This document shows, in pieces, positions 9,101 through 43,842 of a stretch of DNA of 64,000 nucleotides. The notes beneath the pieces are model-generated. The model saw only the letters and a program-made list of their open reading frames with translations, did not search any database and was not told the origin of the DNA. How positions within the stretch are numbered: position 1 is the stretch's first letter; every line of letters starts with the position of its first letter. The position numbers and the translations under genes were made by a program. The DNA is from an uncultured beta proteobacterium (GTDB taxonomy: Bacteria; Pseudomonadota; Gammaproteobacteria; Burkholderiales; Burkholderiaceae_C). The stretch covers positions 1-64,000 of the forward strand of contig CAIJRK010000078.1 in NCBI GenBank assembly GCA_903823025.1. Reading direction: 5' to 3'.

Positions 9101-12100
9101 AGACTCCTGCACAGAGAACCCTTCACCCAAAGCCGAAACGTAATCCCGCAAAGCCTGCCCCGTATGAGAAGCCGGATGCTGACGCATCTCCTCCGGCGTC
9201 CCAAAAGCTACCACCTCGCCCCCCGCATCCCCCCCTTCCGGCCCTAAGTCAATCAACCAATCACTCGCCCGAATCACGTCCAGATTGTGCTCAATCACCA
9301 CCACCGAATGCCCCGCATCCAGCAACTTGCGCATGGCCCGCATGAGCTTGGCAATGTCGTCAAAATGCAAGCCGGTCGTTGGCTCGTCAAACATAAACAG
9401 CGTGCCGCGTTTAGCCGTGGCTTGACGGCTGGCCGTGGTGCTTTTAGCTGCGTCCGCCAAAAACCCCGCCAACTTGAGACGCTGCGCTTCGCCCCCCGAT
9501 AACGTCGGCACCGGCTGCCCCAACTTCACATAATCCAGCCCCACATCCATGATCGGCTGCAACGCACGAATCACCTCGCGGTCATCTGCAAAAAGAAGCG
9601 CCGCCTCGCTCACCGTCAAATTCAACACATCAGCCACACTCAGCAACCGACCCACCCGCTCAATCGTGACCTCCAGAATTTCTGGCCGGTAACGCTGGCC
9701 ATCGCAATCCGGGCAACGCAAATACACGTCGCTCAAAAACTGCATTTCAACGTGCTCAAAACCCGAACCGCCACACGTCGCGCAACGCCCATCGCCATGG
9801 TTAAAACTGAATTTGGATGCGGTGTAACTGCGTTGCCGCGACAACGGTGCCGTCGCAAAAATCTCCCGAATCGCATCCCACGCGCCGACATAACTGGCCG
9901 GATTGGAACGCGCCGTTTTACCAATCGGCGACTGATCCACAAACACCACATCACTCAATTGCTCGGCTCCCAGCAAGCGATCAAATGCGCCGGGTGCCTC
10001 AGTCGATTTACCAAAATGGCGCAACAAAGCCGGGGCCAAAATATCCTGAATCAACGTTGATTTACCAGAGCCGCTCACCCCCGTCACACACACCAACCGT
10101 TGCAACGGAAACTCAACCGTGATGTTCTTCAAATTGTGGTCGCGCGCCCCTTGCACCACCAGACGCGGCGTGCTGGCATCCACCAACCGCTTGAACCCCA
10201 TGCCCACTTGTTTGCGCCCGCCCAGATAAGCGCCCGTCAACGTATCGGCGTGACGCAAATCAGCAGTCGATCCATCAAACACAATTTGCCCACCGCGCTC
10301 GCCCGGCCCCGGCCCCATGTCAATCATGCGGTCAGCCGCGAACATCACAGCCGGGTCATGCTCCACCACCACCAGCGTATTGCCCGCATCCCGCAGGCGC
10401 TGCATCGCCACAATAATCCGGTGCATATCACGCGGATGCAGGCCAATACTTGGCTCATCCAACACAAACAAGGTGTTCACCAATGACGTGCCCAAAGCCG
10501 TGGTGAGATTGATGCGCTGCACCTCACCGCCCGACAACGTGCGACTTTGACGATCCAACGTCAAATACCCAATGCCCACCTCACACAAATATTGAAGCCG
10601 CGTGCTGATCTCCCCAAACAAAAGCGTCAACGTCTTGACATCTGCCGAAGAATGTCTGAGAGGCGCGGGGTTGGGCAAAGCAGGGGCGCCAGAGGCCTTG
10701 GACGCAGAGGCAGACGCAACCGCGTTGCCCGGCAGTCCCGCCTGTAGTGTGTCAAAAAACTTTCTGAGCCGTTCCAGCGGCAACAGCATCAAATCATGCA
10801 AACACAAGCCTGGCAAAGCCTCAAGCTGCACCCGTGTCCACGGCACGCCCACCGGCATAAACCGTTGGGCAGACGCGAGCACCGCATCAGCCTGCGTCTT
10901 GGTGCCGATGCGCCACAGCAAACTCTCCAGCTTCAAGCGCGCGCCGCCACAAACCCCGCACGGCGTGTAACTGCGGTACTTGGACAGCAGCACACGAATG
11001 TGCATTTTGTAGGACTTGGTTTCCAGATAGTCAAAAAACCGCTTGATGCCGAACCAGTGCTGCGCCCACTTGCCGTTCCAGTCAGGCGAGCCGTTAATCA
11101 CCCAAGCTTGCTGCGCGGCGGTCAGTTCAGACCAGGGCGTGTCACGCGGAATGCCAGCCACCTCAGCGTGACGCATCAAATCATCCTGCGCTTCTTTCCA
11201 GGCCGGAGTTTGCATTGGCTTGATGGCACCGGCGCGCAACGTGAGCTTGTCATTCGGAATCACCAGCCCGTAATCGACGCCAATCACTCGACCAAAACCG
11301 CGACAGGTGTCGCACGCGCCCACCGCCGAATTGAAGGAGAACGCTGACGCAATCGGATCGGCATAACGCACATCGCTTTCCGGGCAATGCAGACCGGTCG
11401 AGAACTTCCAGATCGCCAACGGCTCGGCCTCTGCGCCTAACGGATACACCGCCAAACTGCCGCTGCCGTGTTTCAGCGCCACCTCAATCGCCTCCAGCAC
11501 GCGGGCACGCTCGACGCTGCCCAGCCGAAAACGATCCGCCACCACATCCAGCACTTGACGCGGCCCGGTCAGTGTCGCCATCTCGCGCTGGGCCTGCACT
11601 TTGGTAAAACCGCTGACCGACAGCCATTGCTCAACCTCTTGCGGCGGCGTGTTGGCGGGCAACTCGACCGAGAAAGTCACCACCAGACGTGAATTGTTGG
11701 CCCCATCGCGCTCCAGCAACTGCGCATAAATACTCTCCGCCGAGTCATGCCGCACGGCTTGCGCGGTCTCGCGGTCAAACAAATAACCAGCCCGCGAAAA
11801 CAACAACTTCAAGTGATCATTGAGTTCCGTCATCGTGCCCACCGTGGAGCGCGACGAGCGCACCGGGTTGGTCTGGTCGATGGCAATCGCGGGCGGCACG
11901 CCTTCGACCTTGTCCACGGCAGGCTTGTCCATCCGATCCAAAAATTGGCGAGCGTAGGCCGAGAAGGTTTCCACATAACGCCGCTGCCCTTCGGCATAAA
12001 GCGTGTCAAACACCAGGCTCGATTTGCCCGACCCGCTGGGACCGGTGACCACCGTCAGTTCGCCAGTGCGAATATCGAGGTCAATGTTTTTGAGGTTGTG

Positions 12101-12139
12101 CTGGCGTGCGCCGCGAATGCGGATGAGACCGTGTGGCAT
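6110..12139 (-). CDS. uvrA: Tandem-fused double UvrA (excinuclease ABC subunit A-like, 2009 aa)
   Basis: Normal UvrA is about 940-1000 residues; this protein is two of them end to end. Four Walker A motifs are seen: GPSGSGKSS (about 33) and GVSGSGKST at about 687, 1084 and 1687. Four signatures are present (LSGGEVQR once, LSGGEAQR three times) and four DEP(S/T)xGLH Walker B boxes. Each half keeps the damage-recognition zinc finger before its second signature (CATC...CPDC near 786-815; CAGC...CETC near 1800). The seam is a Ser/Thr/Ala-rich linker near 1010-1050. It should act in DNA damage recognition as a covalent equivalent of the UvrA dimer. The ATG at 12139 starts the conserved [17 protein letters not shown]. 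Long fused UvrA proteins are known to me from Burkholderiales, so this is not an assembly artefact by itself. Confidence 0.93.
9003..9076. repeat. 22-bp perfect inverted repeat inside the uvrA linker
   Basis: Arms at 9003-9024 and 9055-9076 are exact reverse complements (22 of 22), separated by 30 bases. Each arm contains GGATGGGGTCACGCCGG or its complement. It lies in the segment encoding the linker between the two UvrA units and is translated in frame, giving the repeated tetrapeptide GVTP on both sides of a Ser/Ala/Gly stretch. Nothing about protein function requires a DNA palindrome, so it looks like an inserted palindromic element tolerated in a flexible linker. Confidence 0.9.
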
Positions 12140-25916: not shown

Positions 25917-25925
25917 GATTTAACT
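25917..25925. repeat. Left target-site duplication of MITE-1
   Basis: GATTTAACT is found immediately before the element and repeated exactly at 26083-26091 immediately after it. Confidence 0.93.
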
Positions 25926-26082
25926 CATTGCGTTATACACAACTTTTTTCTTGTTTTAAATCAACAACTTACGAGTCGATGTTTTTCAGGCCCTGTTCTG
26001 GTTGAACCTATATGAATCAACAACTTAGCGCTGCTGCCGAAATTCGGAAACCTCTGCTGAGTGACTTGTGTATAACGAAATG
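25926..26082. mobile_element. MITE-1 (157 bp) with Tn5-like 19-bp ends
   Basis: The left end is CATTGCGTTATACACAACT and the right end, read inward, CATTTCGTTATACACAAGT. The inner 12 bases of the right end (TTATACACAAGT) equal those of the Tn5/IS50 outside end, which is also 19 bp long and also gives a 9-bp duplication. The inside has two copies of a short motif ATCAACAACTTA and no coding capacity. It is flanked by a perfect GATTTAACT duplication. It is a non-autonomous element that needs an IS4-family (IS50-like) transposase from elsewhere. Confidence 0.9.
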
Positions 26083-26091
26083 GATTTAACT
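26083..26091. repeat. Right target-site duplication of MITE-1
   Basis: GATTTAACT, identical to 25917-25925. Confidence 0.93.
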
Positions 26092-26195
26092 GGGTCAGTT
26101 TCTAATATTAAGCACTCTCCAATAAATAAAGAAATCGGCAAAGTACCTCTTTGTTTAGTGCAGCAGTCCTCCAAACCAACAACACAACACCCGCA

Positions 26196-27122
26196 TCAAT
26201 ACCCACGCCCAGTATCCACAACCCCGGCCACGCCATCACCGCGCTCCAGCGCCATGATCTTGCCTGCAATCTGCGCGATAGATTCATCGCGCAAGGTACG
26301 CGCTGATGCATGTGGCGTCATCGTGATTTTGGGGTGCGTCCAGAACGGATGATCAGCGGGCAAGGGTTCAACGCGAAACACGTCCAGCGTGGCCCCGGCG
26401 AGACGCCCGCTGTCGATGAGCGCGATCAAATCATCGTCCACCAAATGCGCGCCGCGTGCGACGTTGATGACATAACCGTCCGGTTTCAGTTGGGACAAGG
26501 TGGCGTGATTCATGATGTTTTGCGTCTCCGGCGTGAGCGGCAGCAGGTTGACCAGCACTTGGGTGTTGGCCAGAAAGTCGTTGAACTGCGCGGCCCCTAC
26601 AAAGCCGTTGACACCGTCAATCGCTTTGGCGCTGCGGCTCCAGCCGTTCACCGGAAACTCGAACGTCTGCAGTGCCCGCGCCACGCGCTCGCCTAAAACG
26701 CCTAGCCCCATCACGCCGACTGAAAAGTCAGCCCGGCGACGAGGTTTGCGGTCAGACCATAGGCCAGCTTCCATGTCAGCCGCGTAACCCTCAAATTCCC
26801 GAAAATGCCGAATCACGGCATGGCAAACGTATTCCGCCATTTGCACCGCCATACCTGCGTCATCCAAACGCACCACGGTAGCCTGCGGCGGCAAGCGAAG
26901 CTCAAGCAGCGCGTCAACGCCAGCACCCATGTTGAAAATACCTTTGAGCTGCGCCTGTTCATCAAAAAAAGCTTGGGGCGGCGCCCACACCACGGCGTGA
27001 TCGGCGGGCAGCGCGCCGGGTTGCCAAACGCTGATCTCAGCGTCAGGCAAGGCGGCTTTCAGACCGGCCAACCAAGGGCCAGCGGGGAGGCTGGGGCAAC
27101 AAAAAGTAATGTTCATAGTCAT
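26196..27122 (-). CDS. D-2-hydroxyacid dehydrogenase, glyoxylate/hydroxypyruvate reductase type
   Basis: The 308-residue NAD(P)-dependent reductase has an N-terminal catalytic part (FNMGAGVDALL, VRLDDAGMAVQMAEYV) and a Rossmann part with GVMGLGVLGERVA. The substrate-binding INVARGAHLVDDDLIALIDSG is followed by TLDVFRVEPLPADHPFW and the catalytic His in ITMTPHASA. It is most like GhrA-type enzymes that reduce glyoxylate or hydroxypyruvate. Start is ATG 27122, or ATG 27116 two codons on. It lies between the AT-rich island and the MCC genes; the function is not obviously tied to leucine breakdown. Confidence 0.88.
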   Translation of the reverse strand: MTMNITFCCPSLPAGPWLAGLKAALPDAEISVWQPGALPADHAVVWAPPQAFFDEQAQLKGIFNMGAGVDALLELRLPPQATVVRLDDAGMAVQMAEYVCHAVIRHFREFEGYAADMEAGLWSDRKPRRRADFSVGVMGLGVLGERVARALQTFEFPVNGWSRSAKAIDGVNGFVGAAQFNDFLANTQVLVNLLPLTPETQNIMNHATLSQLKPDGYVINVARGAHLVDDDLIALIDSGRLAGATLDVFRVEPLPADHPFWTHPKITMTPHASARTLRDESIAQIAGKIMALERGDGVAGVVDTGRGY

Positions 27123-42786: not shown

Positions 42787-43314
42787 TTATAGCAATCCAG
42801 CAGCTTCACGCATATGCGTGAAATTAATCGACGGTGCCCCTTTAGCCATGGCGGCAAGGTGCAAATCCAAGTCATCCGTCAGAAGCAATCTGTTGACGCC
42901 GAGGGTCGCCACAAGAGAGGCATCGGTGAGTCCGAGTCGCACGAAAATGGCCGCATCAACGTCTGACGCCTTCAACTCGCAGGGGTGAAGTGCCTCTTCA
43001 GTATCCGTGCAAAACAAGGGGAACAATTGACTGAAAAACTCAGCCTTCCACTTGCCCGTCAGAACTTGCGCGGCGAGATTACTGGTTTCCGCCAGGACGT
43101 GCGCCGTGGTCAGAATGCGGTTGAAACGGCTCACATACCCGGCCAGTAACGCAGCATCTTCAAGCGCATATTTCTCAAGCCGTTTACCGCCAATCATCGA
43201 CGGTTGAAAGTTCGCAAACAACAGCAGAAGCAACACGTTGGTGTCCAAAAGAATGCCGTCGCTTCGGTGACGATGGGCATACGCGGTCAGTTGCTCCTCG
43301 AAGGCGGAACTCAT
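42787..43314 (-). CDS. PIN-domain-like protein
   Basis: In this 175-residue protein a PIN nuclease pattern can be seen: GILLDTNVLLLLLFANF (first catalytic Asp), TTAHVLAETSNLA (Glu), and acidic TDASLVATLGVNRLLLTDDLDLHLAA near the end. The fold is commonly a toxin RNase. It overlaps the 102-residue gene by four bases (ATGA), as toxin-antitoxin pairs often do. It is longer than typical VapC (about 130 residues). An RNase or DNase role is inferred. Confidence 0.7.
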   Translation of the reverse strand: MSSAFEEQLTAYAHRHRSDGILLDTNVLLLLLFANFQPSMIGGKRLEKYALEDAALLAGYVSRFNRILTTAHVLAETSNLAAQVLTGKWKAEFFSQLFPLFCTDTEEALHPCELKASDVDAAIFVRLGLTDASLVATLGVNRLLLTDDLDLHLAAMAKGAPSINFTHMREAAGLL

Positions 43315-43619
43315 TGAACTTGTCGCATGTCCATCTTCACAAACTCACCGGTGCTGGCGTCGATAAACACGGTTTTGTAAACACGGTTCTCGATCTGAGG
43401 CACTGGCCTCAAATCAGCCAGACTAAGGACGCCACCACTGACTGCAGAGAGACTTTTGGCACGATGAAAGCCTAACGTCACCGACCATAAGTCACGGCCC
43501 CCCTCTGTCACCAACTCAATCTCTTCCAGCGCCAATTGTTTGAGCGGATCATCTTGGTACAGCTCTTCCAACGATTTTTTGGCATGTGACACCGCTTCTT
43601 TGACAGAAATAAGCGACAT
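43311..43619 (-). CDS. Hypothetical 102-residue partner of the PIN protein
   Basis: I do not recognise the family. The start MSLISVKEAVSHAKKSLEELYQDDPLKQLALEEIELV is helical and charged. The later part (WSVTLGFHRAKSLS, VYKTVFIDASTGEFVKMDM) looks like a small alpha/beta fold. A strong GAAGGAG site precedes ATG 43619, and the gene overlaps the PIN gene by four bases, so it could be its antitoxin or cognate factor. MITE-2 ends 46 bases upstream, so its original promoter region has been altered. Confidence 0.65.
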   Translation of the reverse strand: MSLISVKEAVSHAKKSLEELYQDDPLKQLALEEIELVTEGGRDLWSVTLGFHRAKSLSAVSGGVLSLADLRPVPQIENRVYKTVFIDASTGEFVKMDMRQVQ

Positions 43620-43655
43620 TTGAATCTCCTTCAATGGAATTAACAATGGACAGGG

Positions 43656-43664
43656 CGCTAGACC
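43656..43664. repeat. Left target-site duplication of MITE-2
   Basis: CGCTAGACC occurs directly before the element and again at 43834-43842 directly after it. Confidence 0.93.
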
Positions 43665-43833
43665 CATTACGTTATACACAAGTCAAAAACTCTTTTTAAA
43701 TCAATCACTTACACGTACCTAAAAATTTAGCAATGAGACAATTGCGGATTACGAGAATCCTTATGAATCAATGACTTAGAAGTGTCAGCTGGAACGGCCA
43801 GAAATCGGATTCCGACTTGTGTATAACGAAATG
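43665..43833. mobile_element. MITE-2 (169 bp), same family as MITE-1
   Basis: Ends read inward are CATTACGTTATACACAAGT and CATTTCGTTATACACAAGT (18 of 19 alike), the second equal to MITE-1's right end. The short motifs AAATCAATCACTTA and GAATCAATGACTTA inside match those of MITE-1, although the rest has drifted. Perfect 9-bp duplication. It interrupts the loop of a hairpin between the thiolase and PIN genes. Confidence 0.93.
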
Positions 43834-43842
43834 CGCTAGACC
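43834..43842. repeat. Right target-site duplication of MITE-2
   Basis: CGCTAGACC, identical to 43656-43664. Confidence 0.93.

Follow-up and report, generated by a model that had tools for sequence, protein, structure and literature searches.

The closest described systems are transposons of the IS4 family and MITEs that carry sites for IHF, a DNA-bending protein of the host. Tn10 has one IHF site beside its outside end. MIC231, a mobile insertion cassette of the IS231 subgroup which carries passenger genes, is reportedly a non-autonomous IS4-family element, and constraints of length, bending and twisting on IS50 are said to have been described by Goryshin in 1994. For the IS50 subgroup, Table 1 of PMC2266710 gives the end consensus CW------Y---CA-A--W- and a direct repeat of 8–9 bp, and a passage of PMC3487940 gives a-GntYWRanC-t as the Tn5 target consensus. 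According to passages of the respective papers, the Tn10 transpososome needs IHF to assemble on linear fragments (PMC2705183), loops between transposon ends are sensitive to length and helical phase (PMC3464196), and mobile insertion cassettes are named as non-autonomous elements (PMC3281130). Among MITEs, IHF binds in vitro to the long form of the Correia element (PMC2229807) and the commonest Correia flanking duplication is TA (PMC9330008), as stated in passages of these sources. The IHF consensus is given as WATCAANNNNTTR in passages of both PMC5896051 and PMC3281130.

The window, the whole stretch of 64,000 nucleotides that was analysed, contains two short elements. On sequence comparison we consider them, with good confidence, to be MITEs of the Tn5 type with candidate IHF sites. 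The window belongs to a draft genome of 3.47 Mb in 89 contigs (G000). For a neighbouring gene, Rhodoferax and Acidovorax provide most of the best protein relatives, and we infer that the host is Rhodoferax-like.

Ends, target duplications and copies in the same genome

Copy 1 occupies positions 25926–26082 (157 bp) and copy 2 positions 43665–43833 (169 bp), exactly as given in the original prediction, and both are gene-less. The coding room inside them is at most 56 codons, and no ORF in the list of those with at least 90 aa lies inside either copy: Two ORFs, at 26068–26352 and 43311–43679, merely overlap an element end. In copy 1, the 19-bp terminal inverted repeats are CATTGCGTTATACACAACT on the left (25926–25944, + strand), which has all seven conserved positions of IS50-subgroup ends, and CATTTCGTTATACACAAGT on the right (26064–26082, − strand), recognised by the end pattern. 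The corresponding ends of copy 2, also recognised by their pattern, are CATTACGTTATACACAAGT (43665–43683, + strand) and again CATTTCGTTATACACAAGT (43815–43833, − strand). Comparison of the flanks confirms the exact 9-bp target duplications that had been predicted: GATTTAACT around copy 1 (25917–25925, with an identical right flank at 26083–26091) and CGCTAGACC around copy 2 (43656–43664 and 43834–43842).

The inner 12 end bases had been described as common to all ends. This is true of three of the four, which have TTATACACAAGT; the left end of copy 1 has TTATACACAACT, with ACAACT instead of ACAAGT. The outer seven bases of the MITE ends are CATTTCG, as against CTGACTC in IS50. When the pattern CATTTCGTTATACACAAGT is searched with up to three mismatches, the window contains four matches, all of them these ends, and 100 shuffled windows contain a mean of 0.04 and a maximum of 1.

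A search for ends in the whole genome finds 19 places, which fall into four sets (4 + 2 + 5 + 8), and further facing pairs are present among them, as had been anticipated. The window copies account for the first set, with four ends, and a third copy of the same family (family A), on contig C1 at positions 11953–12109, for the second, with two. This copy differs from copy 1 at a single base in 157 and has its own duplication, ACTCAAACC. The copy 1 type has therefore moved recently, so the old age proposed for the family is only half correct: It does not apply to this type. The family A copies are intergenic and 5' of the next gene, the C1 copy lying between ORFs which by eye are dxs-like and TRAP-type-binding-protein-like. 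Family B, another short family with four copies on contigs C36, C52, C58 and C85, supplies the five ends of the third set. The complete C52 copy has 106 bp; the central palindrome is identical in all four copies, and the left tips are altered on C36, C58 and C85. The last set belongs to a longer element: It contains eight single ends, each of them less than 400 bp from a contig end.

Exact 9-bp duplications are found around all three family A copies of the genome, each of them different, and around two of the four family B copies; those on C36 and C58 have no matching flanks. The duplication is 9 bp long wherever both sides are assembled and matching, both in this genome and on the Polaromonas plasmid pPNAP02 considered below. 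The elements are thus short and gene-less, with inverted ends, duplications, several dispersed copies and a partner with matching ends: These are the features by which MITEs are recognised.

Two family B copies have neighbours of some interest. The copy on C36 adjoins an ORF for an IscB-like RNA-guided nuclease (L119, 1504–2280, minus strand), which matches NF040563 with E=4.9e-22 and 78.5 bits, below the cut-off of 175, and is a fragment at the contig end. In this copy, whose left tip is altered and which lacks a matching duplication, the right end codes for the final residues of the ORF. The C52 copy (L120, 1467–1602) stops 27 bp 5' of the apparent start codon of a gene, named by eye, which we take to be argB (N-acetylglutamate kinase). 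Expression of argB must therefore pass the element or start within it.

Insertion, target preference and the partner insertion sequence

The site of copy 2 is empty in two members of the genus, as the original prediction had expected of relatives: The interval is 178 bp shorter in G066 and 177 bp shorter in G101, and 178 bp is the length expected for the element plus its duplication (169 + 9). Among the matches listed, these are the only genomes of the genus in which both genes flanking copy 2 lie side by side. The intergenic letters are poorly conserved, so the evidence for the empty site consists of length and gene order. An uninterrupted duplicated pair of the flanking 9-mers in genomes lacking the element, which had been named as evidence against insertion, was not found, because the relatives show the copy 2 site without the element. 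For copy 1, 80 loci were compared and none of them matches beyond the neighbouring gene.

Relatives of copy 2 are found on plasmid pPNAP02 of Polaromonas naphthalenivorans CJ2, so the family crosses genera. There are two copies, at 43330–43498 (L174) and 144490–144658 (L176, 44490–44658), each 169 bp long and approximately 89% identical to copy 2, with perfect 9-bp duplications GCTTCAGCC and GGTTGGCGC. Their interiors are identical and their tips are swapped (CATTTCG/CTTTGCG in L174, CTTTGCG/CATTTCG in L176), as if the interior had been inverted between the ends.

Other genomes gave no further copies. The end pattern detects no MITE in 88 other genomes of the genus; ends are present in three of them, on insertion sequences or their remnants. 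A lack of copies in relatives, which had been proposed as a refutation, is thus what these 88 genomes show, and the Polaromonas copies answer it. No MITE was detected in 59 relatives by DNA search, which gave two short matches of 29 and 32 bp without ends, in 398 other genomes of the family with an end-plus-IHF pattern, or in 368 other genomes of the class with facing ends, at a gap limit too short for copy 2 or for copies of the Polaromonas type. In the plasmid and phage collections nothing matches copy 1; copy 2 is without a match in phages, and family B in plasmids. Plasmid matches of 26–27 bp, in two Priestia records, one Peribacillus record and one Burkholderia record, have E values of 0.1–0.5, and the Burkholderia match (L178) has no transposon ends. 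The 29-bp match (L026, 1501–1529, in G033) has 93% similarity to the left arm of copy 2 and contains an exact IHF consensus, with no transposon ends. By eye, it lies directly 3' of a tRNA-Lys-like gene; it is possibly an integration site, or due to chance. On sequence comparison, the mobility of the MITEs is well supported.

The flanks of the MITEs and of the insertion sequence described below have the published Tn5 target preference in common. We have scored the flanking 9-mers of 11 sites in the genome by the seven specified positions of GNTYWRANC. These are five MITE sites, two insertion sequence sites with the duplication on both sides and four with one side assembled, whose 9-mer is therefore a flank and not a proven duplication; the two family B copies without duplication were left out. 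The mean score is 5.09 of 7 (5.2 for MITEs, n=5; 5.0 for the insertion sequence, n=6), and random 9-mers from the window have a mean of 2.44. The observed means were reached in none of 100000 draws and in none of 20000 letter shuffles. Both Polaromonas sites have a score of 5. Five flanks of ends of the insertion sequence type in relatives from the genus, some of them from rearranged elements and all kept outside the statistic, score 1, 3, 4, 6 and 3 of 7.

The genome contains an insertion sequence with ends CATCACGTTATACACAAGT at no fewer than six sites, two of them pairable and four further ones with single ends. The pairs, recognised across contig ends by their 9-bp duplications, are C3/C34 (CATATGAAG) and C26/C77 (CGTTAAAAG). 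The protein which starts just inside the left end has a Tnp_DNA_bind domain (PF14706, E=1e-25), and the same N terminus matches the NCBI IS4/Tn5 DNA-binding domain model and Tn5 transposase structures (PDB 1mus and others, E=2e-4). Inside the right end, the end of a protein matches the Tn5 dimerisation domain (PF02281, E=2.4e-41). The catalytic middle, where DDE and YREK motifs would lie, was not found in the draft assembly, as expected because a multi-copy insertion sequence breaks short-read assemblies; the Polaromonas relative has PF01609. Two related insertion sequences have lengths of 1416 bp (L132) and 1486 bp (L133).

The ends CATCACGTTATACACAAGT agree with the right ends of the MITEs at 17 of 19 bases. 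Two bases differ, so the true partner could be another insertion sequence, now lost. In three members of the genus (G085, G096 and G105), relatives or remnants of the insertion sequence have ends of this type, and in G085 the left end (contig C56) and the right end (C247) are both CATTTCGTTATACACAAGT, identical to both MITE right ends. The search for an insertion sequence with the same ends, which had been recommended, has thus given a Tn5-type one in the genome itself and CATTTCGTTATACACAAGT ends on the same type in G085. G085 also has two elements of approximately 0.5 kb bounded by left-end and right-end sequence of the IS50 type (L111, 813–1307, and L115, 1049–1519), which are likely internal-deletion derivatives of a related insertion sequence. 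All seven positions of the IS50-subgroup end consensus are found in eight of eight end sequences, a comparison which excludes the altered family B left tips on C36, C58 and C85, two of which start with T and would fail at position 1. Ends, duplication and the presence of Tn5-type transposase domains in the genome all agree with the IS50-type (IS4-family) transposition that had been proposed.

The doubled motif and a proposed folding of short elements

The interior of each window element contains a doubled motif, AATCAAYNACTTA. The original prediction was right that it is real, and overlooked both its agreement with the IHF consensus and the 106-bp family. The motif is an exact match to WATCAANNNNTTR and occurs twice per element, always on the + strand: at 25959–25971 and 26015–26027 in copy 1 (both AATCAACAACTTA), and at 43699–43711 (AATCAATCACTTA) and 43766–43778 (AATCAATGACTTA) in copy 2. 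The left candidate sites of both copies have an A/T-rich tract on their 5' side. Together with the four exact sites of the two Polaromonas copies, all eight candidate sites agree with the consensus.

Such matches are concentrated in the MITEs. Four of the seven exact matches in the window lie in the 326 bp of the two elements, and four of the 11 in pPNAP02 (190 kb) lie in its two copies. Shuffled windows have a mean of 1.75 matches and reach seven in one case of 100, and dinucleotide-shuffled interiors reach two or more in 2 and 4 of 5000 cases. Between copies 1 and 2, the specified bases are identical at 18 of 18 positions, the N4 gap at 4 of 8 and the rest of the interior at 35 of 93; the alignment is anchored on the motif, so the Fisher test (P 3e-7 for 18/18) is biased and overstates the difference. 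A gap-free alignment of copy 2 with the Polaromonas copies shows 17 interior changes, none in the 18 specified bases and one in an N4 gap (P=0.07 for this test by itself). Family B does not fit the consensus: Counted from either of its ends, an AATCAA half that faces inwards is found at bp 36, with two mismatches in the rest. The genome contains an IHF-alpha-like gene with 115.5 bits, below the curated family cut-off of 120.25; among 14 control genomes, a single one exceeds this value. The internal AATCAANNACTTA repeats would be binding sites for IHF.

We have looked for the same sites at the ends of insertion sequences. The scan covered 26 loci, each with a transposase or an end of the IS50 type, and 17 of them, including the insertion sequence of this genome, gave a left end next to the start of the transposase; two of these (L125 and L129) come from one genome and have nearly the same insertion sequence. 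Within the first 160 bp, and with at most one mismatch, 15 of the 17 left ends are without an IHF site. The other two are L133, from Paraburkholderia, with a one-mismatch site at bp 58, and L140, whose exact site at bp 82 falls within the transposase gene. None of nine right ends (five from this genome, two from G085, L132 and L133; 131–160 bp each) has a site. Simple shortening of the insertion sequence thus does not account for the MITE interiors, and we have rejected the idea that the IHF sites were inherited from the insertion sequence family. We should also note that L133, the insertion sequence of Paraburkholderia fungorum, has TCAATGACTTAG in its left end, before its transposase gene (361–372), 12 bases identical to a stretch over site 2 of copy 2.

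The positions of the candidate sites are very similar in both copies. Counted from the inner edge of the left end, the centre of site 1 lies at 21 bp in copy 1 and at 22 bp in copy 2, and 43 bp separate site 2 from the right end in both. The spacing between sites is 56 bp in copy 1 and 67 bp in copy 2, a difference of 11 bp, approximately one helical turn. The total lengths of 157, 169 and 106 bp correspond to 14.95, 16.1 and 10.1 turns of 10.5 bp, although three lengths cannot prove helical phasing. The persistence length of DNA is about 150 bp. The inner distance between the ends of the window elements, 119–131 bp, is below this value, so their pairing requires tight bending of the DNA.

We propose that an IS4-family transposase of the IS50 (Tn5) type, encoded now or recently in the same genome, would act in trans on the MITEs. 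It would bind the 19-bp ends, pair them, excise the element and insert it at a GNTYWRANC-like target with a 9-bp duplication. The MITEs and the insertion sequence share their type of ends, the duplication length and the target preference, and the chemistry of transposition is presumably that of Tn5. Two IHF bends would loop an element of 157–169 bp, about one persistence length, so that its ends synapse; the longer parent, which is without sites at its ends, would not need them. The IHF pair may be how such short DNA folds for transposition, and folding seems to be its most likely job; taken by itself, this role is held with far less confidence than the identity of the elements, at about the odds of the proposal that follows. 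A more general proposal, which we make tentatively and hold to be possible and somewhat short of probable, is that very short transposons carry their own host-bending sites: An IHF pair at fixed distances from the ends would form a pre-synaptic loop, a module for which the long parent insertion sequence had no need, and the lengths and the 11-bp difference would reflect selected helical phasing.

Other explanations should be weighed against this proposal. The elements could be simple internal-deletion derivatives of the resident insertion sequence, with which they share their 19-bp ends, and deletion-like elements do exist in G085 (L111 and L115). This is improbable, since their interiors are unlike either end of the resident insertion sequence or of its relatives in the genus when compared by eye, and IHF sites are absent from nearly all the insertion sequence ends counted above. 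We have rejected such a derivation for the resident insertion sequence, as nothing is visible in common beyond the ends. Chance inverted repeats, or a structured RNA or regulatory element unrelated to transposition, have practically no probability: The copies, duplications, empty sites and parent insertion sequence contradict them, and no point was found in their favour. As candidates in their own right, a structured RNA was discarded because folding is no better than for shuffles (z −1.09 and −0.03 for the first 150 bases of each element) and the copy 1 region has no Rfam match, and a promoter or terminator function because a simple consensus scan found none in either element.

The remaining alternatives concern the role of the pair. 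In IS50-type MITEs, it might serve gene regulation at the insertion site and not transposition. The intergenic location of the family A copies, 5' of the next gene, suits this reading, and a passage of PMC10969869 reports that a Correia IHF site regulates mtrCDE. We think it rather unlikely, as the three copies lie at unrelated genes, the copy 2 site is empty in both comparable relatives, the sites keep almost constant distances to the transposon ends, and the consensus scan gave no promoter or terminator candidate. It is also unlikely, to a similar degree, that some other protein binds the doubled motif, or that the motif is a neutral leftover of the founder. Only two independent interiors are present in the window and the Polaromonas test by itself gives P=0.07, which leaves some room for such a reading. 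Against it stand the exact match to a published consensus, the location of the sole Polaromonas change within the motif in the N4 gap, the variation of this gap between window copies at otherwise invariant sites, the A/T-rich tract beside the left sites in interiors which have diverged elsewhere, and the IHF-alpha-like gene.

Folding by a pair of IHF sites, our preferred reading, bears on a practical puzzle, namely how MITEs can be moved when they are far shorter than their parents and pairing needs tight bending. The recruitment of host bending proteins by short elements is directly testable, as there is a Tn5-type parent and purified Tn5 and IHF systems exist. If it is true, selection can act on the internal sequence of MITEs, which is usually regarded as filler.

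Comparison with described systems

The MITEs resemble IS50/Tn5 in their 19-bp ends with TTATACACAAGT, the DnaA-box-like core, the 9-bp duplication, the target preference and the domains of the partner transposase. They differ in being gene-less, in their size of 157–169 bp and in their two internal candidate IHF sites. The outside end of IS10/Tn10 also belongs to the IS4 family; on the other hand, this element is autonomous and is part of the IS10 subgroup. Correia elements (NEMIS, from Neisseria) are MITEs of approximately 105–155 bp, whose long form has an internal IHF site. Their ends differ from those of the MITEs described here. They also differ in that passages of the Correia papers describe one IHF site, compared with the two candidate sites of our elements. 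QMITE1 of Coxiella burnetii is a MITE with a conserved WATCAANNNNTTR site, but it has approximately 400 bp and 21-bp ends, it is transcribed, and the passages of PMC5896051 at hand describe no tie to an IS50-type insertion sequence.

In passages of the open-licence literature of PubMed Central we have found no Rhodoferax or Polaromonas MITE, no IS50-type MITE and no precedent for an IHF-site pair absent from the ends of the parent. In summary, as far as these passages go, MITEs with IHF sites were already known from Correia elements and QMITE1, and what appears to be new is a MITE of the IS50 subgroup with a pair of candidate IHF sites which the ends of its parent do not have.
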